Below, piece by piece: positions 1 to 34,639 of a DNA stretch of 59,837 nucleotides. Under the pieces are notes generated by a model that did no database searches, was not told the DNA's origin, and saw nothing but the letters and a program-made list of their open reading frames with translations. Position 1 is the stretch's first letter. Each line of letters begins with the position of its first letter. Origin of the DNA: Clostridia bacterium. GTDB taxonomy: Bacteria > Bacillota > DAOUPZ01. Position numbers and translations under genes: made by a program. Location of the stretch: the NCBI GenBank assembly GCA_030625885.1, contig DAOUPZ010000023.1:1-59837 (forward strand), in the 5' to 3' direction.

Positions 1-3000
1 GGTGTATCTATTCCGTCACCACTGATAGTGAATACATTGTCCACTACTGGTGCTATTACACCGATGCCTATTACATTTGTACAGCGATTGTACCACGTAC
101 TCGTACCATCATCATAATTACGATAGATTCTTATTGAGGAATGGTTTCCATCATCGTCTACATCATCTATTTCCACACCTTCTACTTCATAAGTAACTAA
201 ATAGTCATCTGAACTGATTTCCGCTATCGGCACTGTCAAGCATGCTCCCATAGGTATATCTTCAAACCCATCTGTGGTGGTAATCTTTATCTCTAAATCT
301 GTTCCTGTTATGCCTGCTTCTGTTAGTAATGTACTCAGCAATACACCTGTACAACTTTCGGCTTCATCTACACTTTTATGCAGATAGGATGCTGTTGTTG
401 CTGTCATTCCTTTTAACGCATCCATTGTATATCCAATTGGTGTATCTATTCCGTCACCCGTTAATGTGAACACCGTATCTGCAGCTTCAAGTACCGGCGC
501 TTCATAATCGCCTGTTCCAACTACAATGCAATCTGTCCATTTTACCCACATGGAGTTGTTTTCTTCCACAACCAAACGTAAGGGTCCGAACTGATTGCCA
601 TCTTCGTATCCAGTGCTGTCAGTTTCTGGTACCAGCGGATACCCGTCCGTAGCATATGCTAGAATTATATCCTTGATTACCCCCTGGCTATTTTCCTTGC
701 CATACATCACTTGATCTATGTCACTGATTATTTGATTATAGTTGCTACCGCTAAATACTCGAATACTACTTGGAGTAGTTACCCCATCCTTTAACTCAAC
801 AACGTTATTAATTAAGTTCCATAATATAACACCTTCCAAATCATGCAGTCCATCTCCAGTATATGTACTGCGAATAATATGATCATTTAATGCTTCTAAT
901 TGCTTAAGGGTGAAAGTCCGCGGCTCTTTTACTTCAGAACCCGTTACACGCAGTACCGCTTGATCCTGATACTCCGAATAAAGACCATGATCATGCTTCC
1001 AACTTGTTCCTTCCTCTGCTTCGATGATTATTTCTACCACATCTTTAATACAATTTCCACTATTATCAAAATCAGTATTATCTTTTTGCCCAATAATTAA
1101 CTGCAGAGGCCCACCTTTATTATGAGCATCAGAACTGTAACCATCAGATTCACTACCAGGAACAAGCGGTAAATTGTTTTTACCATAAGCTAACATTACT
1201 TTTAAATCATTTGCATTGTTATCTGTATTTATATAATCGGCTTTTGCTATTTCTTCTAATGTAAATGTTTTGCTGAACTCATCACTAGCAACTATTGTCA
1301 CTCCACTTGCAGTAGCCTGCAACCCTACTTCTTGGCGCAAATATTCATACAAATTAATCCCGCGATATATATCACTATATCCTTCGGTGCTGCTTTTTGC
1401 TAGATAGTAATCATCTGTCATAATATAATTCTGCAGCGCTTCCACTTCATTTACGGTTAAAGTCTTAGAAGTACGAGCACCATCACCATGAATGGTTAAT
1501 GTCTGCGTGCCATATGTATTATACGGCGAAGTAAGATGTGCCCATTCATCTGTCTGAATTTTAACAGTAATTTCTTGAACGTTACTCATAATCAATCCCG
1601 GAGTAGCCGTAGTAGTTTGTCCAAAAATAACGCCTAACGGGCCACCGTCATTATGTTCAGCATATCCTGCTGCATCTCTATCCACAACCATAGGGTACCC
1701 ATTTTTGGCAAACGCCAGTACCGGCTTCATATTCTCCGCATCAGTAACTTCATTATTATAATTAGCATTTCTGATATCTTCCAAAGTAACCGTTTCCATA
1801 ACGCCTGAGCTATCTTTAAACGTTACTGTCCCCGTTGTCCCCGGTAAGCCAACTTGTTCGCTCAATAGATACCAAATGCCTACCCCTTCGTATAAATCAC
1901 AAATTTTATTACCATTGTACTCTTTAACAAAATAGGAGTCCTTAACACGAGCTTTGTCAGCTTCTGCTTCTGCTACAGCATAAACCATATCTTCGATATC
2001 CTTAACTGTCCAATCTTCCTGTTTAAGCAATGTGTCGTTATCATCTACTACTTTAACGGTAACCGGACTAGCAGCATCGGTATCATACGGTGCATAAGAA
2101 TGTATGCAATAATCAGCATCATTGCCAATAATTATTTTTTTTGCAAATTGAACCTGATTGGAGCCGTTGGTATCATTATAATCTTTTTTACCGGAAATAA
2201 TGCGCAGCGGACCGCCATCATTTCCTATTCCTGCAATGTATCCTTCATCGGCCGGACGTGATACATAAGGATAGCCATTAAACCCATATGCCAATAAAAC
2301 CGGGCACCCTGTTTTTTCAGGCTGGATATTGGAACCATCAAAAGAACCATCACCCAGATCTGCTGGATCTTTTTGATAATAACCATACTGGGAAGCATCT
2401 TTAATATCTTTAATTGTTTTTGGCTGGAATGCATAGTTGTCAGCTGCAATAAATTGTACCGTTGTATTTTCATCTATACTAGCATCCAGTCCAGCATCAA
2501 GCAGCAAATCCCATAATTTTACACCTTTATAATCATTATAGTACCAGTAATTCTCACTGTTGGAGAGACTGTAGCGATCTTCATACTGAATATCTATCAT
2601 TGCTTCAAGATCCGCTACCGAATAATTCTTTTCATGTCCCAATCCAGAGCCAGTTATAGTAACAAGATAATTCGTTAAATCAGGATTATTGTACGGCACT
2701 TGATCATGCTCATAATGACTCTCAGATTTGGTTACGTATATTTTATTAACCCGTGAAAATTCTACCGCCTGCTCATCAGCAGTTGCTTGTCCGACAACCA
2801 GTTTAAAAGGCCCATTGTCATTCCCTTTGTCAGCGTCATAACCAACATCAGTGTTGCTATATACCAAAGGCAGTTCATTAACACCGTATGCGACTATCAT
2901 CTGCAGGTTATTAGCTTCAGTTGTATTGTTCAAATAATCCGTTTTACGAACTTCATCTAATGTATATTCTCCAATATCATTTCCTGATTTATCTTTAAAA

Positions 3001-4364
3001 ATGACAGTTTGTGCATCTGATGTCAATGTTACAAAATTATCAAGCAAATAGGAAACAGTAATTCCCTCATAAGTGTTCTGCTTTGCTTCACCAGCAATGC
3101 TTTCTGCATAAGTACCCCGGAACAAACCATCATTTGCCTCTTCTATCTGAGGTACGGAAATAGCTCGGTAATTTTCCACTCCCGGTCCTTCAATTGTCAA
3201 CGTAGCAGTAGTAATATCATCAATATTATATGGGTTTCCTTCATTAGTATAGGTGATATGTTTATACGGACTAGTGGTAAAGTCTATATCTTCACTTCCA
3301 TCAATACGAATGCCAATAATGTTTTTGAATACCGTGTTAAACTCATTTTCCGTCTTAAGCTTACGGTAAATACGCAATTCTTTATTGATACCGTCATACG
3401 CTTCCCCATCAACTTCATATGCCAGTACATATTTTAAGCTTGGATTTTTAATATCTTCCTGTTTTTGCGGATCTATGGGATATGTATCTGCATCACTGTT
3501 AATAAATTGAACATCTGCGTCTTGATTTGCGATCCCTACTACATCCTGCAGGATATAACATAAATCTACGCCTTTGACATGGACTGTTTTTGAACCGCTA
3601 CTGCTGTTATATTGATAATCTTCATCTATTTGATATGCCGCTGGCATTGCTTTAAGCTGCGCGATGGTAAATCCTGTTTCAGTTGCAACACCATTACCAT
3701 CTATTGTGATAACTACGGGGCGTTCTTCGCCAACAACAATGCGAACCAAATCTCTTGCCCAACCAGATTGATTGGTATCATCAATGCTCTGTTGCCCAAA
3801 CACAGCTCGAGGTCTATGATCATCCAAATCGCTTTCCGTTAATTCCCGGTCCTGGCTCTGCCAATCCACTGGCGGATTAAAGACTTCCTGACCAAGGGAT
3901 ATCAATTCAGCTTTATAAAAATCTATCATTGGCGCAACAATCTGCCCACTTGCTTCCGTAAAGTCTGAATAATAGTACGCATTCTTTAATTCACTTACTG
4001 TTCTATGAGTTTTAAAAGTATCCAAGCATTCAAATGTTACGGTATAATCTTGATCCGTTTTTAAATTAGCTTCACCAATCAAAGAAAAAAGGTCATATCC
4101 TTTAGCTTTCGTTATCTTATGAAAACTCCAAGTATTATTGGAAGAATAATACCTCTCTACCATTTCAGTTTTATGTTCTTCCCAATATGATTCATGAATA
4201 ATGACATCTTGCTCAAGGCCTGTCCCTGTGATGGTCAGTACAACCGGATCTTCCTCCGCCCACGCCGTTTGCGGCGTAACCATTCCAAAAAATCCCGCGA
4301 TCATACTTAAAACAAGCAAACAAGCCAAAAATTTATTCCATCCTGCTTTTCTCATCATTTGCAC
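1..4364 (-). CDS. Secreted repeat protein of degenerate molybdopterin-domain-like units (partial, runs off left edge)
   Basis: An uninterrupted minus-strand frame of about 1450 codons continues past base 1. I chose the GTG at 4364 because GGGAG lies about 8 nt upstream; ATGs at 4358 and 4355 are alternatives. A signal peptide is clear: basic MRKAGWNK, a hydrophobic core, then a TAWA/EE cleavage site. The mature part holds at least eight units of 170-200 residues starting near bases 4250, 3715, 3210, 2665, 2060, 1510, 960 and 470, and a ninth starts near 40. Each unit runs: beta strand with TGxG, 'LxELxAM', 'GVxLxxLL', 'VxF', 'LAYGxNGxPLV', 'GYxxxxxNxGGPLRLVxGQ', and a closing 'VxxIxV'. This order is that of the sulfite oxidase/YedY molybdopterin domain, but I see no cysteine where the Mo ligand should be. 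I infer a structural or binding surface protein rather than an enzyme. The C-terminus, and any cell-wall anchor, is outside the window. Confidence 0.8.
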   Translation of the reverse strand, partial: MQMMRKAGWNKFLACLLVLSMIAGFFGMVTPQTAWAEEDPVVLTITGTGLEQDVIIHESYWEEHKTEMVERYYSSNNTWSFHKITKAKGYDLFSLIGEANLKTDQDYTVTFECLDTFKTHRTVSELKNAYYYSDFTEASGQIVAPMIDFYKAELISLGQEVFNPPVDWQSQDRELTESDLDDHRPRAVFGQQSIDDTNQSGWARDLVRIVVGEERPVVITIDGNGVATETGFTIAQLKAMPAAYQIDEDYQYNSSSGSKTVHVKGVDLCYILQDVVGIANQDADVQFINSDADTYPIDPQKQEDIKNPSLKYVLAYEVDGEAYDGINKELRIYRKLKTENEFNTVFKNIIGIRIDGSEDIDFTTSPYKHITYTNEGNPYNIDDITTATLTIEGPGVENYRAISVPQIEEANDGLFRGTYAESIAGEAKQNTYEGITVSYLLDNFVTLTSDAQTVIFKDKSGNDIGEYTLDEVRKTDYLNNTTEANNLQMIVAYGVNELPLVYSNTDVGYDADKGNDNGPFKLVVGQATADEQAVEFSRVNKIYVTKSESHYEHDQVPYNNPDLTNYLVTITGSGLGHEKNYSVADLEAMIDIQYEDRYSLSNSENYWYYNDYKGVKLWDLLLDAGLDASIDENTTVQFIAADNYAFQPKTIKDIKDASQYGYYQKDPADLGDGSFDGSNIQPEKTGCPVLLAYGFNGYPYVSRPADEGYIAGIGNDGGPLRIISGKKDYNDTNGSNQVQFAKKIIIGNDADYCIHSYAPYDTDAASPVTVKVVDDNDTLLKQEDWTVKDIEDMVYAVAEAEADKARVKDSYFVKEYNGNKICDLYEGVGIWYLLSEQVGLPGTTGTVTFKDSSGVMETVTLEDIRNANYNNEVTDAENMKPVLAFAKNGYPMVVDRDAAGYAEHNDGGPLGVIFGQTTTATPGLIMSNVQEITVKIQTDEWAHLTSPYNTYGTQTLTIHGDGARTSKTLTVNEVEALQNYIMTDDYYLAKSSTEGYSDIYRGINLYEYLRQEVGLQATASGVTIVASDEFSKTFTLEEIAKADYINTDNNANDLKVMLAYGKNNLPLVPGSESDGYSSDAHNKGGPLQLIIGQKDNTDFDNSGNCIKDVVEIIIEAEEGTSWKHDHGLYSEYQDQAVLRVTGSEVKEPRTFTLKQLEALNDHIIRSTYTGDGLHDLEGVILWNLINNVVELKDGVTTPSSIRVFSGSNYNQIISDIDQVMYGKENSQGVIKDIILAYATDGYPLVPETDSTGYEDGNQFGPLRLVVEENNSMWVKWTDCIVVGTGDYEAPVLEAADTVFTLTGDGIDTPIGYTMDALKGMTATTASYLHKSVDEAESCTGVLLSTLLTEAGITGTDLEIKITTTDGFEDIPMGACLTVPIAEISSDDYLVTYEVEGVEIDDVDDDGNHSSIRIYRNYDDGTSTWYNRCTNVIGIGVIAPVVDNVFTISGDGIDT

Positions 4365-4480: not shown

Positions 4481-4627
4481 AAAAATAAGCAAACCGTGTT
4501 TGGTTTGCTTGTATAAAAATGATCTCCTTTCCAAACACGGGAGGCCATGCCGTTTCCAGCACCACCTATCGCTTTACCGTCATAGGATTTCCCTTTAGAA
4601 CAGTAAAGTCGGAGAAATAGCTATTCT
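4481..4627 (-). promoter_or_regulatory. Structured leader with mutually exclusive terminator and antiterminator (candidate riboswitch)
   Basis: On the minus strand, a hairpin with a GAAA tetraloop (TGCTG/CGGCA, 4547-4560) and a CCTAT/ATAGG stem are followed by CCGTGTTTGG (4531-4540). That decamer is exactly complementary to CCAAACACGG at 4494-4503, which is part of an intrinsic terminator (arms AAGCAAACC/GGTTTGCTT, 4487-4510, then a U-run). Pairing of the decamers would disrupt the terminator. A CUUUACUG segment near 4612 can also pair with CGGUAAAG in the apical loop near 4577. The class is not identified: motifs only loosely recall c-di-GMP-I or Moco RNAs. The target is the repeat surface protein, whose start is about 120 nt downstream of the terminator. 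Confidence 0.6.
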
Positions 4628-4687: not shown

Positions 4688-5437
4688 CTAATTTCCTTCT
4701 AATAATGACAATTTTTTCATCATCTTTATGCTTTCAATACCCTCTCGCAGCACATTTTCCTGCTGCGGCCTCCGCTTAATCGTTTCCTCTAACGCTTGAA
4801 TGATATAACACCAGACTCGTTCCTCTATCTTTCTACCCGTTTCTTTCTGGTAATATCTTATCAACGCCTCAACGATAGCAAACTTCCATTCCGCAAACGA
4901 GGGGTCATTATTCAAAATAAAACTACATAATTCCCCCAAATCGCGAGCCGGATCCCCCCAATGCTTGCTTTCAAAATCAATCCCGTAAAATTCATTTTCA
5001 TAATAAATAAAATTACGCAAATTCGCGTCCTGAATCAAAAGTACTTTTCCTGCTTCATTTAAGGTTAACTGATGGTAACTTGCCAACCAAACAGCCAATC
5101 TCTCAATCCACCTATTGCTATCACTCTGACGTTTTCCCAGTAGATCTACAAGTAATACCCCTGGAATATATTCCATAACAATCATCCCCGGAATATGCCA
5201 AATAACCTGCGGTACACCCATACGATGCATTAATAAACAACGCAACACATTGGCTTCTTCTCTACTTTTAACCTCATCCATAATCACTTTAACGACGACT
5301 TTTAGCGTCTGACCCGTTTTAAGCCGTACATCAACACCATACACCTCATTACGCCGACTAAAAAAATGTTCAACATTTAATATCTTCTCAATCTCCGGCC
5401 ACTGCATCAATTTTTCCTGCCATTTTTCCCCTTGCAT
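4688..5437 (-). CDS. Kinase-fold protein (APH/KdkA-like)
   Basis: This 249-residue soluble protein has protein-kinase-like fold signatures. An N-lobe 'VVVKV' lysine strand (about residue 48) is followed by a hinge 'MIVMEYIPG', a catalytic loop 'IQDANLRNFI' (about residues 135-145), and a metal site 'GIDFE'. The catalytic-loop histidine seen in aminoglycoside phosphotransferases (HGDLHPGN) is Gln here, while Asp and Asn are kept, so activity is plausible but unproven. A GGAGG Shine-Dalgarno precedes the ATG. It lies 30 bp downstream of the molybdate transporter gene in the same direction, so the two are probably co-transcribed. Its substrate cannot be told from sequence; small-molecule, lipid A/sugar or protein kinase activity are all possible. 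Confidence 0.6.
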   Translation of the reverse strand: MQGEKWQEKLMQWPEIEKILNVEHFFSRRNEVYGVDVRLKTGQTLKVVVKVIMDEVKSREEANVLRCLLMHRMGVPQVIWHIPGMIVMEYIPGVLLVDLLGKRQSDSNRWIERLAVWLASYHQLTLNEAGKVLLIQDANLRNFIYYENEFYGIDFESKHWGDPARDLGELCSFILNNDPSFAEWKFAIVEALIRYYQKETGRKIEERVWCYIIQALEETIKRRPQQENVLREGIESIKMMKKLSLLEGN

Positions 5438-5467: not shown

Positions 5468-6580
5468 TTAGTTCCCCTTCTTCCTTTCAACCAAATAATA
5501 AAACGCCATCCCTGCTGCATACCCCGCTGCCATATTGAAAACAACTGCCAGAACCGTCGTAAGGAACAAACTCTTGACGCCCTCCTGATCAACCCCTTTA
5601 GTCAATTTACCCAGTTCAATACCCACAAACAGCATCATAGCGCCCACAATGCTCATAGGAAAAATAGTAAATAAATTTTTAATCGATTGGGCTAGAAACA
5701 GTCCTAACCCTACTTCAATCAGACCCTCCATAATGGCTGACCCTCCCGTACGGGCCCCAAAATAGTATTGTCCTGCCAATCCCCCTGCACCATGGCACTG
5801 GGGCATACCGCCAAACAGCGGAACAATTAAATTCATAAATCCCATATTCAGCATTAATTTCTTTTCTGAAATTTTCTGATCTGCCTGCTCCGGAAAATAT
5901 TCCCGCAGAAGTGCTGCCGTGGCAATCACCGCATTAGACAACGTTAACGGCATCTGGGCAATACCCGCTAAAACAAAACCTTCATAAATATTTTTAAGAG
6001 AGGGTAATGTAAAATGCGGAAAGCTAAAGGAAAATTGGACAATATGCTTCATATCATGTTGAAAGAACATGATCCCAATACCAAGACCCATTAACACAAT
6101 TGAAGCCGGTAATTTCTCATTTTTCCCTAATAAAATGAGAACTATAATGGCAATCAGGCCCAGAGCAACGCCCGCATCATTGATCATTTTAATCCCTGAC
6201 CACGCCAATGTAATTCCTAAAGCCAGCTGGATCCCCCGAATCACCGGTTTAGGCGTTATTTTGACCAGTTTATTGACCAAACCAGAAAAAGCAATGATCA
6301 CCCAGGTAAATCCCAGCGCAATCCCGGTTCCCTGCACCATCGCCGGATTCCATTTATCCGCAATCGCAATGGCTGCGACTACTTTTTTAGGCTGCAAGGG
6401 CATCGGTAAATTGTAGATGAATCCTAATGTTATATTCGAGAGTCCAAACATAATCAGCATGGAAGCTGGATCCATTTCCACCACTACAATATAACCAATG
6501 ACTAGCGGAAGCAGCGTACCAAAATCCCCCATCGATCCCGCCAATTCCCTAAGCGAAAATTCATAACCTCGTATCTTCAT
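5468..6580 (-). CDS. MOT1-type molybdate/sulfate transporter
   Basis: This 370-residue polytopic membrane protein has about 10-12 hydrophobic segments. It opens with 'FSLRELAGSMGDFGTLLPL' and later has 'PMPLQPKKVVAAIAIAD' and 'GGMPQCHGAGGLAGQYYFGARTGG', which are the two signature blocks of the MOT1 molybdate transporter family (SulP-related, without a STAS domain). Length fits the family. GGAGG lies just upstream of the ATG. High-affinity molybdate uptake is the family role and would feed the Moco genes at 28.6-34.6 kb. Sulfate or another oxyanion is possible, but the near-invariant Gln/Pro-rich motifs favour molybdate. About 600 bp without genes lies upstream. Confidence 0.85.
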   Translation of the reverse strand: MKIRGYEFSLRELAGSMGDFGTLLPLVIGYIVVVEMDPASMLIMFGLSNITLGFIYNLPMPLQPKKVVAAIAIADKWNPAMVQGTGIALGFTWVIIAFSGLVNKLVKITPKPVIRGIQLALGITLAWSGIKMINDAGVALGLIAIIVLILLGKNEKLPASIVLMGLGIGIMFFQHDMKHIVQFSFSFPHFTLPSLKNIYEGFVLAGIAQMPLTLSNAVIATAALLREYFPEQADQKISEKKLMLNMGFMNLIVPLFGGMPQCHGAGGLAGQYYFGARTGGSAIMEGLIEVGLGLFLAQSIKNLFTIFPMSIVGAMMLFVGIELGKLTKGVDQEGVKSLFLTTVLAVVFNMAAGYAAGMAFYYLVERKKGN

Positions 6581-16167: not shown

Positions 16168-17025
16168 TTATTTACAATTTGTATTAATATTGAAATCTTC
16201 GAAACCTTCCGTTTCTAAGAAATGCAATAATACATTTCTTAAATCGATCACATCTTTCATTTCAAATAAGCCTACTTTCTTATTAACAAAACGAGCGGCC
16301 TTCAGCGCCCCTTCTGCAAAAACTTTCCGTGAAAAAGATTCATGAATGATCTCGATTTTATCATTTTCCCCGATGGCCAATACACGATGACGACCAATGA
16401 CACCCCCAGCACGTAAGGCATGTATTTGAATCTCCTGATGTGCCTTTTGCTTTCTCGCAGAAGACAGTTCATACAAGTTTAATCCTTTTTCAATCTCATA
16501 CGCAATTTTTTTGGCAGTTCCTGATGGCGCATCTACTTTATGACGATGATGTGTTTCCACAATCTCAAAATCATAATTATTTAAAATGCTAGATGTTAAG
16601 CGTGACAGCAGCATCATCAGATTAACCCCTAATGTAATGTTAGGCGCAATTACAATACCAATAGGATCGTTTTTCTGCATAGAAGCAATATTCTTTTCCT
16701 GGATTTCTGTAAATCCTGTGGTTCCAATCACCATATTAACTTTTGCTTTACCACAAAACTTGATATGCTGTAATGTAGCCTCAGGAACCGTAAAGTCGAT
16801 CACGACATCCGGCTTGTTTTTATGTAAACTTCTTTCCAAATGATGAGAACCCTCTATTATAATTCCCGTATCACTCGTTTCTAAAACTTTTCCCAGGTCT
16901 TTTCCCACAAATTCACTATCAGGCGAACAAATTCCCAGCACCAACTTCATATCATCCTGATCTAAAATCAATTTTGCTATTTCTTTACCAGCTCTACCAA
17001 GACCAATAACGCCTATCTTTATCAT
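16168..17025 (-). CDS. dapB: 4-hydroxy-tetrahydrodipicolinate reductase
   Basis: DapB reduces the dapA product in lysine/diaminopimelate synthesis, which also supplies dipicolinate in spore formers. The N-terminal Rossmann motif 'IGVIGLGRAGKEIA', 'VVIDFTVPEAT', 'VIGTTGF', 'IAPNITLGVNLM' and the catalytic 'ETHHRHKVDAPSGTA' are present. The ATG at 17025 is chosen for its AGGAG 7 nt upstream, giving 285 residues. 'GLGRAG' replaces the usual GxxGRMG, and the protein is slightly longer than the 265-residue norm. About 360 bp of AT-rich sequence upstream holds no gene and no riboswitch that I recognise. No lysine or other dap genes are adjacent. Confidence 0.9.
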   Translation of the reverse strand: MIKIGVIGLGRAGKEIAKLILDQDDMKLVLGICSPDSEFVGKDLGKVLETSDTGIIIEGSHHLERSLHKNKPDVVIDFTVPEATLQHIKFCGKAKVNMVIGTTGFTEIQEKNIASMQKNDPIGIVIAPNITLGVNLMMLLSRLTSSILNNYDFEIVETHHRHKVDAPSGTAKKIAYEIEKGLNLYELSSARKQKAHQEIQIHALRAGGVIGRHRVLAIGENDKIEIIHESFSRKVFAEGALKAARFVNKKVGLFEMKDVIDLRNVLLHFLETEGFEDFNINTNCK

Positions 17026-17336
17026 CTCTTCACTCCTTTTCATTTTTTTTTAAAATTACTTAGGATAATATTATTATTCGCTTATTTCCATTTTATGCGA
17101 AAATTTTTATGTTTATTCCTTAATTTACATTTTTTTAACTATTATTTAAAGTTATTTACAAGTTGATAATGATATATTTTTTACTGAATCTATGGCAGCG
17201 CTCTAGCCTGTTTCATTCCCAATCTGCACTAGGTAGAAACATGAAAATTTTTACATAAAAATACATAATATTTATACCCCTTATATTAGACCTCAAACAA
17301 AAAACAAACCACTCAAAAAAATTTATACTTTTCCAT

Positions 17337-28594: not shown

Positions 28595-29113
28595 CTAAAC
28601 TTTGCCACATTCTCCCCCGATACCTCGCAAAATTTCTATCCCATGAGGTAAAGCAGGTACAATCACTTCAAAACATTCTCGTACTGCTTTAGGACTGCCG
28701 GGCATATTAATAATCAAAGTTTGACCTCGCACCCCTGATCGTGCTCTGGAAAGCATTGCTTTTGGTGTTTTTTCCATGCTTTTTGCCCGCATCACTTCTG
28801 CAAAACCCGGTGCTTCCCGATCAATCACATCAAGTGTGGCCTCCGGTGTAAAATCACGGGGACTCAATCCTGTTCCACCTGTTGTCAAAACCAAATCTAA
28901 TTTATATTCATCTGCCATTCGTCGCAGCTCATCAGCAATTTCTACTCGTTCATCCGGAATAATCATATATCGTTCAACACGGCCTGACAATTCCTTTTCT
29001 ACCATTTCCTTAATAACCTGGCCGCTCACATCTTCCCGTAATCCCTGGGAGCCTTTATCACTTGCTGTTAAAATACCTACTCGAATCATGATGTCATCTA
29101 CTTTCTTCATCAT
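28595..29113 (-). CDS. mog: Molybdopterin adenylyltransferase (MogA/MoaB family)
   Basis: This 172-residue protein has 'GILTASDKGSQGLREDVSG', 'TTGGTGLSPRDFTPEATLDV' (the MPT-binding motif), and 'INMPGSPKAVRECFEVI'. The family adenylates molybdopterin before metal insertion by MoeA. The start overlaps the moaC stop (ATGA-type), with GGAGG before it. It is the last Moco gene before rbfA. Confidence 0.93.
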   Translation of the reverse strand: MMKKVDDIMIRVGILTASDKGSQGLREDVSGQVIKEMVEKELSGRVERYMIIPDERVEIADELRRMADEYKLDLVLTTGGTGLSPRDFTPEATLDVIDREAPGFAEVMRAKSMEKTPKAMLSRARSGVRGQTLIINMPGSPKAVRECFEVIVPALPHGIEILRGIGGECGKV

Positions 29114-29598
29114 TGATCCTCCGCGCGCTTATAAAGACCACTTTTCCCACCTGATTTTTCCATTAACCGAATATCTTTGATGATCATCCCACGATCAATG
29201 GCTTTACACATATCATAAATGGTTAAAGCAGCTGTAGAAACGCCTGTCAGTGCCTCCATTTCCACACCTGTCTTTCCTGTAGTCCGTACACGACATTCAA
29301 TCTCAATCTCTGACCTTTCTGCTATGGTGTGAAAGTAAACATCAACACCGGTCAGCATAAGTGGATGGCACATGGGTATTAAATGCGAAGTCTGCTTAGT
29401 TGCCATGATTCCCGCCACACGGGCAACCCCTAACACATTCCCTTTCGCCATATTCTGATCTATAATTTGTTCAAATGTTTCTGGTTTCATCATAATTGAA
29501 CCCTTTGCGATAGCTTGTCTTGTCGTATCCTGCTTACTTGAAACATCTACCATCCGCGCGCGTCCTTCTTTATCAAAATGGTTCATGTCTTCCATCAT
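29110..29598 (-). CDS. moaC: Cyclic pyranopterin monophosphate synthase MoaC
   Basis: This 162-residue enzyme has 'MVDVSSKQDTTRQAIAKG', 'KGNVLGVARVAGIMATKQT', 'LIPMCHPLMLTG' and 'VGMEALTGVSTAALTIYDMCKA'-like sequence (here VEMEALTGVS). It turns the MoaA product into cPMP, the first pterin of Moco synthesis. It starts on the last base of moaA, so the two are translationally coupled. Confidence 0.96.
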   Translation of the reverse strand: MMEDMNHFDKEGRARMVDVSSKQDTTRQAIAKGSIMMKPETFEQIIDQNMAKGNVLGVARVAGIMATKQTSHLIPMCHPLMLTGVDVYFHTIAERSEIEIECRVRTTGKTGVEMEALTGVSTAALTIYDMCKAIDRGMIIKDIRLMEKSGGKSGLYKRAEDQ

Positions 29599-30605
29599 TA
29601 TCCCCCTATCTTTGACATCGTCCGTTTATAATGTCTTTCTTCGTTATCTTGATCTAAATGATGCCCTTCAGGCTTATGCCTAACAACTAAACGGAAACAT
29701 TCTTCCAACTCTTCTGCTGTGGCCCCTTGTCGAATCAACTTCTTAATATCTACTTCGTAATCCGAAAGTAGACAAGGCCTAATTTTTCCATCTGCCGTCA
29801 AGCGCAACCGATTACATTCACTACAAAAGTGATTGCTGATGGGGCTAATAAATCCAATGGTCCCCAAGGCCCCCGGAATTCTATAGTAACGTGCAGGCCC
29901 ACAACCAAAGACAGAAGAAACCGGTTCTAAAGGACCAAACTGCGCCTCAATTTTTTCCTTCATTTCAGCTACCGGAATAATTTTATCATGGCTCCAGATA
30001 CTGCTATCTCCTATTGGCATAAATTCAATAAAGCGGGCATGAATAGCTTGAAAAGTAGTGATATGACCTAATATACCCAACATTTCTTCATTGAAGTCAC
30101 GAATTAATACCGTATTTAGTTTAACAGGTGTCAAACCTGCTTTTAATGCCCCTTGAATACCCTCTAACACTTGAGGCAGCCGATCACGCCTTGCAATCTT
30201 TATGAATTCCTTTCTATCCATCGTATCCAAGCTAATATTAGCACGATTAAGACCTGCTTCTTTCAAATCCTCCGCCATTTGCCCCAGTAAGACACCATTG
30301 GTCGTCATCGATATATCTTCAATAGCAGGCACCTTTTGGCGAATATCCCGAATAAAATCAACAAGGCCTTTACGCACCAGTGGTTCTCCACCGGTCAGTC
30401 GAATACGCGTAATTCCAATTGCAGCAGCCGCTTCTACCACCTCAAGTATTTCACCAAACCGTAAAATCTCTGGATGATCAATATCTTCTACACCCTCTTC
30501 GGGCATACAATAAATACAACGCAAATTGCAACGATCGGTCACTGAAATTCTGAGATAATTGATTTTGCGGTTATAGGTATCTACTAAATTATGATTTTTC
30601 TCCAT
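29598..30605 (-). CDS. moaA: GTP 3',8-cyclase MoaA
   Basis: This 335-residue radical SAM enzyme has the N-terminal cluster motif 'CNLRCIYC', 'RLTGGEPLVRKGL', 'SMTTNGVLL', and the C-terminal second cluster 'CSECNRLRLTADGKIRPC' followed later by the usual final Cys region. It starts Moco synthesis from GTP. The C-terminal GG pair that activates MoaA is present as 'SKIGG'. It overlaps the stop of the upstream moeA-PBP fusion by 17 bp. Confidence 0.96.
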   Translation of the reverse strand: MEKNHNLVDTYNRKINYLRISVTDRCNLRCIYCMPEEGVEDIDHPEILRFGEILEVVEAAAAIGITRIRLTGGEPLVRKGLVDFIRDIRQKVPAIEDISMTTNGVLLGQMAEDLKEAGLNRANISLDTMDRKEFIKIARRDRLPQVLEGIQGALKAGLTPVKLNTVLIRDFNEEMLGILGHITTFQAIHARFIEFMPIGDSSIWSHDKIIPVAEMKEKIEAQFGPLEPVSSVFGCGPARYYRIPGALGTIGFISPISNHFCSECNRLRLTADGKIRPCLLSDYEVDIKKLIRQGATAEELEECFRLVVRHKPEGHHLDQDNEERHYKRTMSKIGG

Positions 30606-32526
30606 CGATTTCTCCTCCCATTATCAACCCTGTATGACGGGTACTATATCCCCCTAAAGATTCTACCCGGGTCTTGAAAGTATTACTGTTTATCACTTGG
30701 AGTAACTTCTGAAAATGTTCACTCTTAAACGTTGTTTCTGAAACAGCTAAATCATAACGTTCCTCTTTAAGCGGAATAAAATCAAGTCCTAAGGCTTCTG
30801 CCGCACCTAATATGCCCATTCCTACATCCGCCACATTGCCTACAACAGCAGCCGCTACTGCCATATGCGTAAAATCTTCCCGCTGATAGCCCGCAATCTG
30901 TTCCGGTTCAATCCCTTGTTCTTTTAACATATAATCAAGAAGAATCCTTGTCCCTGCACCTCGCTGCCGATTAACAAACATAACATCTTCACGAATCAGA
31001 TCTTCAATTCCTCTAATGTCTTTCGGATTACCCGGTAAAACCATTAAGCCTTGCATACGATAAACCATATTAACCAATACCATTGACTGGTTGGGTAATA
31101 ACCGATTAACATAAGAATGATTATATTCTCCTATTTCTTCATCAAGAAGATGAATGCCAGCGAGATGAGCCTCCCCTTTTCTTAAAGCCATTAACCCACC
31201 CATACTACCCACATGGGCAGAAGACAAAGCCATTTCAGGAAAAGACTTCCTAAGCTCGCTCGCCAAAATATCCATGGTCATATCATGACTTCCAATCGCC
31301 ACTAATGTGTTATCAATGGCTTCTTCATTACCAAAAAGTTCGACTTCAACTTCTTCCCGCGCTTCCAATCCTTCTGAAGCCTGTCCAATACTAACTTGTC
31401 CTTCCGCTTGTACTAGAGACATAATAACGGAAGCACCTCGCCCCATAGGCGTAGCAATTAATTTATCCCCTACTTTCCCTAGTTTGACTCGCACAAACTC
31501 TTTTGAGCCTAATGTAGAAACCACTCGCCGGGAAAGTATCGCTTTTACTTTTCTACGGGGCTTCACCTGCCGACCTAATCGCTCGCTCATTAAAGACTTG
31601 AGAAATAACTCTGCTGTCAATGTCGCCGAAACAGGATAGCCCGGTAACCCAATAAACGGTTTATCATTAACAACACCTAAAATAACCGGTTTACCCGGTT
31701 TGATCCCTACCCCATGTACCAACAGATCACCTAATTCATCTACCGCTTTAGACGTAAAATCTTCTGATCCCGCTGAAGAACCTGCATTTGTAACCACAAT
31801 ATCTGCCTCTTTGGTTGCTTTGATGATGGCTTCCTTAATACTAGGGTAATGATCAACTACGATATCGTATCGCAGCGACTCGCCTCCCCATTCCTTAACA
31901 TATCCTGCTAACATATGGGAATTGAAATCTATAATATCCCCCTCTTTAAGGGCAGCCCCCACGGGTACTAATTCTGTTCCGGTAGGAATAACAGCAACGC
32001 TTGGTTTTTTCCAAACCGCTACCTCATTGACCCCTCCCGATAAGAGGGCACCTATTTCTGCAGGCCCAATACGGACATTTTCAGATAAAATTAATTCTGT
32101 TTTCACTACATTCTCACCAATAATTCGTACATGCTCCCATGGTACGACAGACGAATTAATCTCTATCGTTTCATTATCTACTTCATGTACTTTTTCAATC
32201 ATAACAACCGCATTAAATTTTGATGGCAAAGGATCCCCTGTATCCACATACTGAGCCTGATCCCCAGTTTTTAAATATCTGGAACGGGTATCAGAAGCCC
32301 CAAAAGTATCCTCTGCTTTTACAGCATAACCATCCATTGCCGAAGCATGATAATGGGGAGAAGAAATCTCGGCAAATGCACCCGCAGCCGTAATTCGCCC
32401 TAAAGCCTCACAGGTTAGTACCATTTCTTTCTTTCCTTCCATCAAACCTTTTTCCCGTAGTTTTATGAAAAATTTATCTAATGCGTCTTCTAAAGGTAAG
32501 TTGTCTAAATATATGCGTCGTCCCAT
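30589..32526 (-). CDS. MoeA-PBP fusion: molybdopterin molybdotransferase with C-terminal substrate-binding-like domain
   Basis: A 645-residue protein. Residues 1-405 form a complete MoeA: 'SSPHYHASAMDGYAV', 'TGDPLPSKFNAVVMIEKV', 'VIPTGTELVP', 'TNAGSSAGSEDFT' and 'KPGKPVILG'. The catalytic 'GGSS' of MoeA reads 'AGSS' here. Residues about 410-630 resemble the PBP-like (periplasmic-binding/LysR effector) domain: 'VAIGSHDMTMDILASEL', 'FVNRQRGAGTRILLDYML', 'VGMGILGAAEALGLDFIPL'. Such fusions are known in anaerobic Firmicutes and archaea; the PBP part is thought to bind molybdate/tungstate or a precursor. AGGAGG precedes the ATG. A separate moeA lies just upstream. Confidence 0.92.
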   Translation of the reverse strand: MGRRIYLDNLPLEDALDKFFIKLREKGLMEGKKEMVLTCEALGRITAAGAFAEISSPHYHASAMDGYAVKAEDTFGASDTRSRYLKTGDQAQYVDTGDPLPSKFNAVVMIEKVHEVDNETIEINSSVVPWEHVRIIGENVVKTELILSENVRIGPAEIGALLSGGVNEVAVWKKPSVAVIPTGTELVPVGAALKEGDIIDFNSHMLAGYVKEWGGESLRYDIVVDHYPSIKEAIIKATKEADIVVTNAGSSAGSEDFTSKAVDELGDLLVHGVGIKPGKPVILGVVNDKPFIGLPGYPVSATLTAELFLKSLMSERLGRQVKPRRKVKAILSRRVVSTLGSKEFVRVKLGKVGDKLIATPMGRGASVIMSLVQAEGQVSIGQASEGLEAREEVEVELFGNEEAIDNTLVAIGSHDMTMDILASELRKSFPEMALSSAHVGSMGGLMALRKGEAHLAGIHLLDEEIGEYNHSYVNRLLPNQSMVLVNMVYRMQGLMVLPGNPKDIRGIEDLIREDVMFVNRQRGAGTRILLDYMLKEQGIEPEQIAGYQREDFTHMAVAAAVVGNVADVGMGILGAAEALGLDFIPLKEERYDLAVSETTFKSEHFQKLLQVINSNTFKTRVESLGGYSTRHTGLIMGGEIDGEKS

Positions 32527-32538
32527 TCTTTAAACCTC

Positions 32539-33777
32539 CTAGAATAATCTGACCGTCACTTGTTCCCCTTTTTCCAACCCAGCCCGTTCAATAGGAATTT
32601 TCACTATACCTTGCGCTTTTACCATCGTAAAAATCAATCCTGATTTTCCAAGAATGGGATGAACCTGAAATGTTCCATTTTCCGCTGTAATGGCAACCCG
32701 AAGGTAATCTTCCCTCCCTGGACTGGAAGGGACATTACGCGTTAATTCACCTTTTAAACTTTTTCTTCCTAAACCTTTTTCTTGTTTACCCTGTAATTTG
32801 CAAATAATCTCTTCTACAAACAAATCAAATATGGTCATAGCCGCTACAGGATGACCTGGCAGACCAAAAACAGGCTTGTTTTGACTGATCGCCATAATGG
32901 TAGGCTTACCGGGACTGACTGAAACACCATGTACTAATACGCCTGGCTCTCCCAAAGACTCTAATACCTCCACCGTTACGTCGCGCGTCCCCACAGAGCT
33001 TCCTCCAGAAATTAACACCATATCATATTCTTGCAATGCTTCTGTCATTTTCCCTTTTAATTCTGCGAAATTATCCCTTACAATACCCATATGTACTGGC
33101 ATACCGCCAGCCTCCATGACTTGCGCATATAATGTATAGGCATTAATATCCCTAACTTGTCCCACCTTAACTTGTTTCTCTGGAGACACCAATTCATCTC
33201 CCGTAGATATAATTGCAATACGAGGTCTTTCATACACCGCCGCCTCAACAATACCAAGGCTGGCAAAAGCACCCAAATCCTGAGACCGAATGGTATGCCC
33301 TTCCGACAGAACAACCTGTCCTTTCCCAACATCATCCCCTGCTTTTACCACATTTTCACCTGGTCCTACAGATTTTACAACTTCTAATAGATCATCTCCT
33401 ACTAAAGTTGTATATTCTTTCATAACAACAGCATCAGCGTCTGGTGGCAGCATACCTCCTGTAGGGATGTAAATGGCTTGCTGGGCGTGCACTGGTTTTT
33501 GCGCTTCTTCACCCATTAGTATTTCACCCGCCGGTATCAAATAGGCTGGCAAACTTTCTGATGCTCCAAAGGTATCTTGTGCCCGCACAGCATAACCATC
33601 CATCGAAGAACGGTCAAAAGCAGGAATATTTTCCGGAGCTTGTACATCTTGTGCTAGTACTCTTCCCAATGATTGCTGTAAACAAACGATTTCCTTCTTT
33701 AATGAAGGCATACAAAATTGTTGGTAAAAAACCGTTCTAGCTTCTGATGGCGTATAAACTTTAAATAAATCACTCAT
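32539..33777 (-). CDS. moeA: Molybdopterin molybdenumtransferase MoeA
   Basis: This 412-residue protein inserts Mo (or W) into adenylated molybdopterin. 'FDRSSMDGYAVRAQDTFGA', 'PTGGMLPPDADAVVMKEY', 'ISTGDELVSP', 'ISGGSSVGTRDVTVEVL', 'SVSPGKPTIMA' and 'FGLPGHPVAAMT' give all MoeA blocks, ending in a normal domain IV. It precedes the moeA-PBP gene by 12 bp. AAGGAG lies 8 nt before the ATG. Two MoeA paralogues side by side are often read as separate Mo and W enzymes, which cannot be settled from sequence alone. Confidence 0.95.
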   Translation of the reverse strand: MSDLFKVYTPSEARTVFYQQFCMPSLKKEIVCLQQSLGRVLAQDVQAPENIPAFDRSSMDGYAVRAQDTFGASESLPAYLIPAGEILMGEEAQKPVHAQQAIYIPTGGMLPPDADAVVMKEYTTLVGDDLLEVVKSVGPGENVVKAGDDVGKGQVVLSEGHTIRSQDLGAFASLGIVEAAVYERPRIAIISTGDELVSPEKQVKVGQVRDINAYTLYAQVMEAGGMPVHMGIVRDNFAELKGKMTEALQEYDMVLISGGSSVGTRDVTVEVLESLGEPGVLVHGVSVSPGKPTIMAISQNKPVFGLPGHPVAAMTIFDLFVEEIICKLQGKQEKGLGRKSLKGELTRNVPSSPGREDYLRVAITAENGTFQVHPILGKSGLIFTMVKAQGIVKIPIERAGLEKGEQVTVRLF

Positions 33778-33814
33778 TGTCGGTACTCCTTTGTTTTGTC
33801 ATCAATTATCTAAA

Positions 33815-33868
33815 AAAACAGTAAGTGGAAAGTAGAAAAAAGAGCACTTGCTACTTACCATTTTTAAA
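33815..33868. repeat. Inverted short repeats (GTAAGTG/CACTTGC-TACTTAC)
   Basis: AGTAAGTGGAAAGTAG pairs loosely with CACTTGCTACTTACC across an A-rich loop. It lies between the mobB cluster and moeA and may terminate the 59-residue gene. Confidence 0.5.
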
Positions 33869-34043
33869 AAATACCTAACTGACACTTATTAATCTTAATT
33901 CCCATTTCATCTGCTAAACGTCCTATTTCTTTTAATCCTATGTTCGTCTCTTTAGAAATCTGATGTGCTACTGCACAAGGCAATTTACCCTCTACCAGAC
34001 TGTTTTTAATTTTTTCTTTTAACAAATCTTCATTGATGGTCAT
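33864..34043 (-). CDS. 59-residue protein of the mobB cluster (small conserved-looking helical domain)
   Basis: A short ORF that starts 'MTINEDLLKEKIKNSLVEGK' and ends 'KINKCQLGIF'. It has two cysteines ('LPCAVAHQIS' and 'NKCQLGIF') and a helix-turn-helix-like middle ('IGLKEIGRLADEMGIKI'). GGAGG sits before the ATG, and it starts 2 bp after the mobB stop, so it belongs to the same transcript. I recall similar short proteins with an 'LPC...CQLG.F' pattern near Moco genes in other anaerobes, but I cannot verify that here. It may be a metal-binding or regulatory partner. Confidence 0.7.
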   Translation of the reverse strand: MTINEDLLKEKIKNSLVEGKLPCAVAHQISKETNIGLKEIGRLADEMGIKINKCQLGIF

Positions 34044-34045
34044 TG

Positions 34046-34639
34046 TTATGCCTCCTCTAAGATATTATTCATTATCTCTTTAAGCGCCAACCATGGTTTT
34101 TCACCATCATGCATTAAGTTCATCATCATGATTGGTGCTTGCCTATTATAGTCACGCAAAACCTTTTGCCTCGCTTCAATTGCATTTCTATCTCTTTCAT
34201 CTTCACTGTGAATATTTATAATAATAACATGTGCTTTCTCCAAAGGTAAAATAGCGGAAGGCTTCATTTCTCCCTGAATGGTTGTTACAAAGACAATCAA
34301 ATCAGGTTCTACCGCCTGTAACGATCGATTCCCTTCAATGACCAGCCATGTGGCCTGATTAACCAATGAAAGGGCTTCATTAAAAGAGACGGAAAATGCC
34401 TCCGGGTTAGTATGAACCCAAACTACCGGATTCGCCCCTGCTTTCCGAAATGCCCATGTATCTGTACCAGCTTGATCAATTATTTTGCTTGAATCAGTCA
34501 CAAAGGTTTCGAACTTTTCCCCTTTACGCGGCAATGTACATTTGATCGCTGCCGGCTGTTTTAACCAGGAAATAACCTTTGCTGCAAGAGTAGATTTACC
34601 CACATGACTTTTAGCTCCAGTAATGCTGATTATCTTCAT
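34046..34639 (-). CDS. mobB: MobB-like P-loop protein of molybdenum-cofactor synthesis
   Basis: This 197-residue protein opens 'IISITGAKSHVGKSTLAAKV' (Walker A) and has 'WLVIEGNRSLQAVEPDLIVFV', typical of MobB (MGD-synthesis adaptor GTPase) and of related P-loop proteins. The usual MobB is about 165-175 residues; the extra length is in the C-terminal 'HSEDERDRNAIEARQKVLRDY' helix. It overlaps the dapA-like gene upstream by one base and precedes the 59-residue gene. mobA is not in the window. Confidence 0.75.
   Translation of the reverse strand: MKIISITGAKSHVGKSTLAAKVISWLKQPAAIKCTLPRKGEKFETFVTDSSKIIDQAGTDTWAFRKAGANPVVWVHTNPEAFSVSFNEALSLVNQATWLVIEGNRSLQAVEPDLIVFVTTIQGEMKPSAILPLEKAHVIIINIHSEDERDRNAIEARQKVLRDYNRQAPIMMMNLMHDGEKPWLALKEIMNNILEEA

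Follow-up and report, generated by a model that had tools for sequence, protein, structure and literature searches.

A tandem array of apparently cofactor-less sulfite oxidase-fold domains under a molybdenum/tungsten-cofactor riboswitch: a candidate surface receptor in a Clostridia bacterium

We analysed a 59,837-nucleotide (nt) stretch of DNA from a Clostridia bacterium (assembly GCA_030625885.1, contig DAOUPZ010000023.1, here C34), hereafter the window, which begins at base 1 of its contig and thereby cuts a gene for a giant surface protein that runs off the contig. The open reading frame (ORF) of this gene (3-4364, reverse strand, GTG start) codes for 1454 amino acids (aa) up to the contig end, where it remains open, and encodes a signal peptide followed by tandem units of the sulfite oxidase (SUOX) fold (Table 1). 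An iterated profile detected eight units (U1-U8) inside the window, where the initial annotation had likewise seen at least eight behind a signal peptide, and nine in the joined protein described below; five of the nine cover most of the profile and the other four match chiefly its N-terminal half. A riboswitch of the molybdenum cofactor (Moco) class precedes the gene, and a MOT1 molybdate transporter gene lies 1.1 kb upstream, as had been reported at the outset.

To judge from the sequence, the giant gene is probably completed on a second contig, C38, of which bases 2-208 code for 69 aa identical to the end of the giant ORF and bases 208-976 for the remainder up to a stop at 976, giving a full protein of about 1709 aa. 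The overlap of C34 and C38 is 99.5% identical at the DNA level and not exact, and the DNA of U8 and U9 is 96% identical; we therefore infer the join and treat the number of last-unit copies as uncertain. The joined protein ends in an Ig-like domain, which would supply the C-terminus that the initial annotation lacked. The S-layer homology (SLH) or sortase signal considered for it was found neither in the 1454 aa nor in the C38 part, and SLH anchoring of the giant itself was rejected accordingly. The Ig-like domain has no clear Pfam match, is common to the giant and large RCC1-repeat-like surface proteins (L027 4207-7812, L028 16342-19932, L026 2-976) and may be a cell-surface retention domain.

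Table 1. Features of the giant SUOX-array gene and its surroundings (window coordinates; i-E, independent E-value of the profile match)
Feature	Position	Strand	Evidence
U9 start, cut by contig end	3-41	-	profile aa 1444-1552
SUOX-fold unit U8	48..473	-	profile aa 1298-1408, i-E 3.4e-13
SUOX-fold unit U7, end by eye	510..956	-	profile aa 1137-1224, i-E 1.4e-6
SUOX-fold unit U6 (AlphaFold-modelled unit)	1038..1502	-	profile aa 955-1109, i-E 8.9e-23
SUOX-fold unit U5, ends by eye	1575..2051	-	profile aa 788-921, i-E 1.8e-9
SUOX-fold unit U4	2133..2666	-	profile aa 567-744, i-E 6.5e-23
SUOX-fold unit U3	2751..3203	-	profile aa 388-538, i-E 1.8e-16
SUOX-fold unit U2, end by eye	3249..3713	-	profile aa 218-325, i-E 1.4e-15
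SUOX-fold unit U1	3747..4241	-	profile aa 42-206, i-E 8e-25
Signal peptide, ~aa 1-36	4257..4364	-	hydrophobic core ending TAWA, by eye
Intrinsic terminator GCAAACC-AAACAC-GGUUUGC, then U tract	4489..4508	-	sequence; stem -12.2 kcal/mol
Moco/tungsten-cofactor riboswitch aptamer RF01055, P3 stem absent	4508..4626	-	Rfam 68.6 bits, gathering 36
Antiterminator arm CCGUGUUUGG in aptamer core	4531..4540	-	10-nt perfect complement of terminator bases 4494-4503
APH-family kinase gene, immediately upstream of riboswitch	4688..5437	-	PF01636 32.8 bits
MOT1 molybdate transporter gene	5468..6580	-	PF16983 187 bits
Moco biosynthesis genes (MogA-, MoaC-, MoaA-, two MoeA-, MobB-like)	28595..34639	-	PF06463 and PF01967 above cut-off; other names by eye

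The fold of the units was supported by both profile and structure comparisons. PF00174 matched the whole giant protein at 64.6 bits (E = 1.1e-17, cut-off 24), and 92 of 110 single units and relatives matched it alone (E < 0.01), so that the assignment is not due to chance; U6 alone gave no PF00174 match. An AlphaFold (AF2) model of U6 from 110 family rows had a core with predicted local confidence (pLDDT) above 90, and Foldseek matched this model in the PDB to SorA (sulfite dehydrogenase, E = 4e-6), PruR, YedY and chicken SO/sulfite oxidases, all with probability 1.00. PruR, a small periplasmic SUOX-fold protein without Mo that binds pterins (PMC13259868), gave the best target-normalised TM-score (0.60-0.67) and was also the top PDB sequence match of the single-domain relatives (7kom, E = 6.6e-5). 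In addition, the SUOX+CHB_HEX_C module of a sister protein was modelled at pLDDT 95.7 and aligns over both SorA domains. The giant used as a single sequence found no match in the PDB, a PHROGs search gave none either, and membership in the NF041762 diheme protein family was rejected (70 bits vs a cut-off of 300). The sulfite oxidase/YedY-type fold first proposed by eye is thus borne out, and the units are neither Ig-like nor of an unrelated fold.

In an hhalign profile alignment, the Cys of E. coli MsrP, which we take to be the Mo ligand, falls on the x of the family motif YSxINTWP. This column is occupied by T (31%), A (19%), S (11%), V (7%) and C (6%) in 321 family domains, and none of the giant units has Cys there, in agreement with the initial annotation. 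Since the SUOX pterin-binding fold is kept and the Mo-ligating Cys is absent, the giant units were read as binders and not as enzymes. Polar residues (N, D, Q, K) are conserved across the family, and the SUOX modules look like cofactor-less domains that would bind a ligand. The approximately 6% of modules with Cys in this column (YSCINTWP), for example in L060_4231_8130 (aa 637-793) and L068_10001_11326 (aa 41-198), may in some cases still ligate metal, judging by the motif.

The RF01055 aptamer lies 143 nt 5' of the giant start codon on the same strand, between the giant and the APH-kinase genes, and its P3 columns are deleted in the alignment to RF01055; this P3-less class was tied to the tungsten cofactor by Regulski et al. 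2008 (PMC2408646). Within the aptamer core, CCGUGUUUGG exactly complements CCAAACACGG of the downstream intrinsic terminator, whose stem is perfect, and the fold with the terminator (-49.8 kcal/mol) is favoured by 4 kcal/mol over that with the antiterminator (-45.8 kcal/mol). Riboswitch, terminator and antiterminator together form the anatomy of an OFF-switch, from which the giant gene should be expressed when cofactor is scarce.

The association of this riboswitch with SUOX genes extends well beyond the window. In 61 homologous Bacillota loci, a search with a covariance model gave 55 riboswitches, spread over 35 of the loci and all on the SUOX coding strand, against a chance expectation of 3-4 in 0.83 Mb at a background of ~4 per Mb; the first gene 3' of them was SUOX in 29 cases, ApbE in 13 and EcfS in 4. 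The window's genome has 17 RF01055 riboswitches, 16 above the gathering score (~4 per Mb), which also lead Tup-, Wtp-, Mod-type and BtuCDF-type transporters and aldehyde-oxidoreductase-like and formate-dehydrogenase-like genes, and the relatives add moaA/moaC and formate dehydrogenases; these gene names were given largely by eye, except where domains were scanned (including the chemoreceptors and HD-GYP proteins below). On contig C10, a BtuCDF-type transporter under a Moco riboswitch stands directly before a SUOX gene, and a c-di-GMP-I riboswitch was found in the region of the C10 SUOX cluster (L028 1440-1524, reverse strand). In the window's genome (G000), three methyl-accepting chemotaxis proteins and two HD-GYP-type proteins, one with GGDEF, are riboswitch-led as well (L126 500-2464, L127 475-2181, L131 469-2274, L133 576-2201, L027 15350-17206), as if a shortage of Mo/W (molybdenum/tungsten) cofactor triggered changes in motility or cyclic di-GMP. 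Two to three Moco riboswitches in a row precede SUOX, ApbE or EcfS genes in several places (L031 6509-8237; L053 1970-2259; L056 699-1165; L054 2581-2877), and the P3 stem is kept in the five L031 copies and absent in the other aligned copies.

One genome of the set, G015, has a locus matched at 97% by Syntrophomonas wolfei subsp. methylbutyratica and is thus probably S. wolfei. Its P3-less riboswitch (L030 17385-17503, reverse strand) leads a SUOX operon, and the module of the nearest gene reads YTTINTYP, with no Cys. Among the exceptions noted in the 2008 paper are S. wolfei RNAs that stand ahead of 'putative Moco-utilizing sulphite oxidase' genes (PMC2408646), and the G015 operon is likely one of these.

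The 61 homologous loci came from Syntrophomonas, Pelotomaculum, Sporotomaculum, Desulfotomaculaceae, Dethiobacter, Thermovorax and others; genome contigs were scanned for relatives with a closer 6-row alignment, a 17-row alignment being too diverse. In a phylum sample of 399 genomes, 101 had some match, in many of them confined to the CHB part, and high-scoring full members were a small minority. SUOX domains were found fused to the S-component of energy-coupling factor (ECF) transporters in 7 ORFs (both Pfam domains above cut-off in those scanned), to an extracellular phosphoesterase in 8, to FMN_bind in 4 and to DUF4430-like domains, named by eye, in 16, and SLH domains occur in 54 SUOX ORFs. 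One protein of 1198 aa (L030 11443-15039, reverse strand) combines a purple-acid-type phosphoesterase, a Shr-like heme/haemoglobin-interacting domain (PF07550), SUOX, CHB_HEX_C and three SLH domains. Furthermore, a transmembrane-anchored SUOX protein, recognizable by a hydrophobic tail conserved at its C-terminus, stands directly 5' of ExbB in 40 of 41 cases, and DUF2149 follows in 35 of 43. DUF2149 gave no match in the window's own genome, so the ExbB-DUF2149 part is not universal. Elsewhere in Bacillota the ExbB-DUF2149 pair accompanies CobN-like genes, and in others a different repeat-type protein or a substrate-binding-like gene, the partners being named by eye (L159, L161, L162, L163, L169, L174).

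Downstream of the giant on C38, an SLH protein (L026 1058-2116), two ECF ATPases, a T component, MobB and a purple-acid-type phosphoesterase are followed by SUOX lipoproteins, an FMN_bind lipoprotein, two SUOX-SLH proteins, a PF09819 S-component and a transmembrane-anchored SUOX protein. All of the ECF parts S, A, A' and T are therefore in one locus (L026 2156-4395 for the ATPases and T, assigned by clustering and by eye; 16616-17227 for PF09819). As upstream of the giant, where it is of the APH family, a kinase gene lies in the G056 cluster (L029 18910-19632), and the kinase neighbour family is present in 4 loci. A TrmO_N+FmdE fusion lies beside ECF or SUOX genes in two places (L032 16332-17156, Pfam-scanned; L027 7817-8626), FmdE being a protein from Mo-formylmethanofuran dehydrogenase operons. 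The window also carries Moco biosynthesis genes, with PF06463 and PF01967 above cut-off at C34:29658-30041 and 29146-29553, respectively, so that the host makes its own cofactor. Cofactor auxotrophy through loss of moaA/moaC was rejected as a motive for scavenging, as each of the four genomes checked has both genes.

Taken with some confidence, our interpretation is that the giant protein is a surface-exposed, multivalent receptor of a system for acquiring a ligand related to the Mo/W cofactor, most likely of pterin type. Low intracellular cofactor would let transcription pass the terminator behind the P3-less riboswitch, so that the array is secreted, and each unit may bind ligand through its SUOX pterin-binding fold. 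Companion SUOX proteins are held to the wall by SLH domains or to the membrane by lipid or transmembrane anchors, as their sequences show. The extracellular phosphoesterase could trim phosphate or nucleotide from the ligand, and the flavinylated FMN_bind/ApbE/4Fe-4S branch might reduce it, before it is handed to the ECF importer, whose S-component is itself fused to SUOX in some species; in many relatives, the transmembrane-anchored SUOX receptor would also couple to the proton-motive ExbB-DUF2149 module. When cofactor suffices, the riboswitch would close capture and import by product feedback. The interpretation given in the initial annotation is supported in part: of the roles that it had offered, namely scaffold, scavenging or adhesion, scavenging is favoured by riboswitch control, by the fusion to the ECF S-component and by the link with ExbB. 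The more specific proposal of a dedicated import of the intact or part-degraded Mo/W cofactor or its pterin, with SUOX arrays binding, phosphoesterase trimming, ECF importing and the riboswitch shutting off, is tentative and less likely than not.

Several points weigh against an acquisition system for a pterin-type ligand. The host encodes its own MoaA and MoaC and is not a cofactor auxotroph, and salvage would accordingly save cost or gain metal and not replace synthesis. PF09819 S-components are otherwise tied to thiamine precursors, and the giant on C34 is linked to the ECF genes on C38 through the presumed contig join within a repeat. The giant units are divergent, several matching just the N-terminal half of the profile, and loop 117-131 of the U6 model, which holds part of the pocket, is disordered (pLDDT < 50). 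The identity of the ligand is likewise inferred, with Moco/tungstopterin and molybdopterin-derived or other reduced pterins as the most likely candidates. The PruR pocket was described as too small for Moco (PMC13259868), and riboswitch control by itself is compatible with Moco enzymes too.

This last point leads to the view that the SUOX proteins are, as usually annotated, extracellular oxidoreductases dependent on Moco or tungstopterin, whose riboswitch matches the enzyme to the cofactor supply. Moco enzymes are indeed among the genes that Moco riboswitches lead (PMC2408646), genes for FMN_bind, ApbE and 4Fe-4S proteins are close by, and the few modules with Cys at the ligand column would suit such a role; however, this Cys is missing from 94% of modules and from every giant unit, and the up to nine repeats, the SLH anchors, the fusion to ECF and the coupling to ExbB resemble no SUOX enzyme, which makes the view improbable. 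A better case can be made for the same surface system with a metal as ligand (molybdate, tungstate, thiometalate or a metal-organic complex), for which the pocket of the SUOX fold would have been re-used as an oxyanion or chelate trap. Metal transporters adjoin, including MOT1 by the giant, the riboswitch-led BtuCDF-type transporter in C10 and ModABC near the G060 SUOX cluster, and the host synthesizes its own pterin. We nevertheless rank a pterin-type ligand above a bare oxyanion on the strength of PruR and of the phosphoesterase fusions, since the SUOX/PruR fold binds pterins and the fusions point to a phosphorylated organic ligand; apart from its Pfam name, the S-component also matches no known metal type; a metal ligand is thus unlikely, if the strongest of the competing accounts.

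The SLH modules of so many SUOX ORFs could also belong to a structural or adhesive block of the S-layer, in which the fold is only a scaffold and the riboswitch alters the cell surface in Mo/W starvation, and the riboswitch-led chemoreceptors and HD-GYP proteins suggest a wider behavioural response. The fusion of SUOX to the ECF S-component and to enzymes and the family-wide conservation of polar residues argue against this, and we hold it to be quite improbable. Extracellular pterin sensing as in PruR-DcpA, with the SUOX proteins reporting to membrane partners and ExbB and ECF as incidental neighbours, would build on PruR as the closest known cofactor-less SUOX domain, but no family resembling the cyclic di-GMP enzyme DcpA was present among the 68 loci clustered and transport genes dominate and are fused, which leaves sensing the least credible of these accounts.

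Syntrophic anaerobes rely on Mo/W enzymes, namely formate dehydrogenases and aldehyde oxidoreductases. The general view is that the Mo/W cofactor is made inside each cell and that just molybdate or tungstate is imported, and the acquisition system proposed here suggests that syntrophic anaerobes may collect cofactor, pterin or metal from outside the cell. If this is true, many Bacillota 'molybdopterin-dependent oxidoreductase' annotations would become binding proteins, the S. wolfei 'sulphite oxidase' exception of the 2008 riboswitch study would be explained, and a so far unassigned group of PF09819 ECF transporters, as well as ExbB-DUF2149 modules, would gain a clue to their substrate. The riboswitch-controlled, uptake-like setting did not figure in the initial annotation, whose observation is confirmed and more interesting than it was described.

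Parts of this system are already known, namely the SUOX fold and, in PruR, a cofactor-less SUOX binder, so that a cofactor-less SUOX domain outside the cytoplasm is not in itself new (PMC13259868); the novelty lies in the array and in the riboswitch-controlled, uptake-like surroundings. No prior description of a riboswitch-controlled, importer-fused SUOX surface system was found in the open-access literature, subscription papers lying outside the search, and the array together with its Moco-riboswitch-controlled, uptake-like system appears undescribed in the literature searched. PruR (PDB 7KOS, 7KOM, 7KP2) shares with the giant units a minimal SUOX fold, an extracytoplasmic location and the lack of the Mo-ligating Cys, but it is a single domain of ~170 aa in Proteobacteria that signals to DcpA, whereas here an array on the Bacillota surface is riboswitch-controlled and importer-linked. 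The sulfite oxidase family enzymes (SorA, SorT, YedY/MsrP and chicken SO; PF00174) have the same fold and strand order; here the Mo-ligand Cys is absent from the giant units and nearly all other modules, and there are tandem arrays; no match to the C-terminal PF03404 was reported in the SUOX proteins here, which have Fn3_assoc/CHB_HEX_C instead. In Hmu heme uptake (HmuYRSTUV), the gene of an extracytoplasmic cofactor receptor adjoins an ExbB-type channel and DUF2149 (PMC12583661, PMC10434189), an arrangement paralleled in many relatives but not in the window's own genome; there the receptor is a CobN-like HmuS with a TonB-dependent HmuR in diderms, whereas in the relatives the putative receptor is a transmembrane-anchored SUOX protein, with ECF genes in place of an outer-membrane receptor. 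PF09819 (YkoE-type) ECF transporters have the same S-component and A/A/T genes, and the present ones differ in that the S-component carries or adjoins extracellular SUOX under a Moco/tungsten-cofactor riboswitch. Finally, the RF01055 regulon has the P3-less aptamer in common with the present system and already included S. wolfei RNAs before 'sulphite oxidase' genes (PMC2408646), whereas we read these genes as coding for cofactor-less surface receptors of an uptake-like system.

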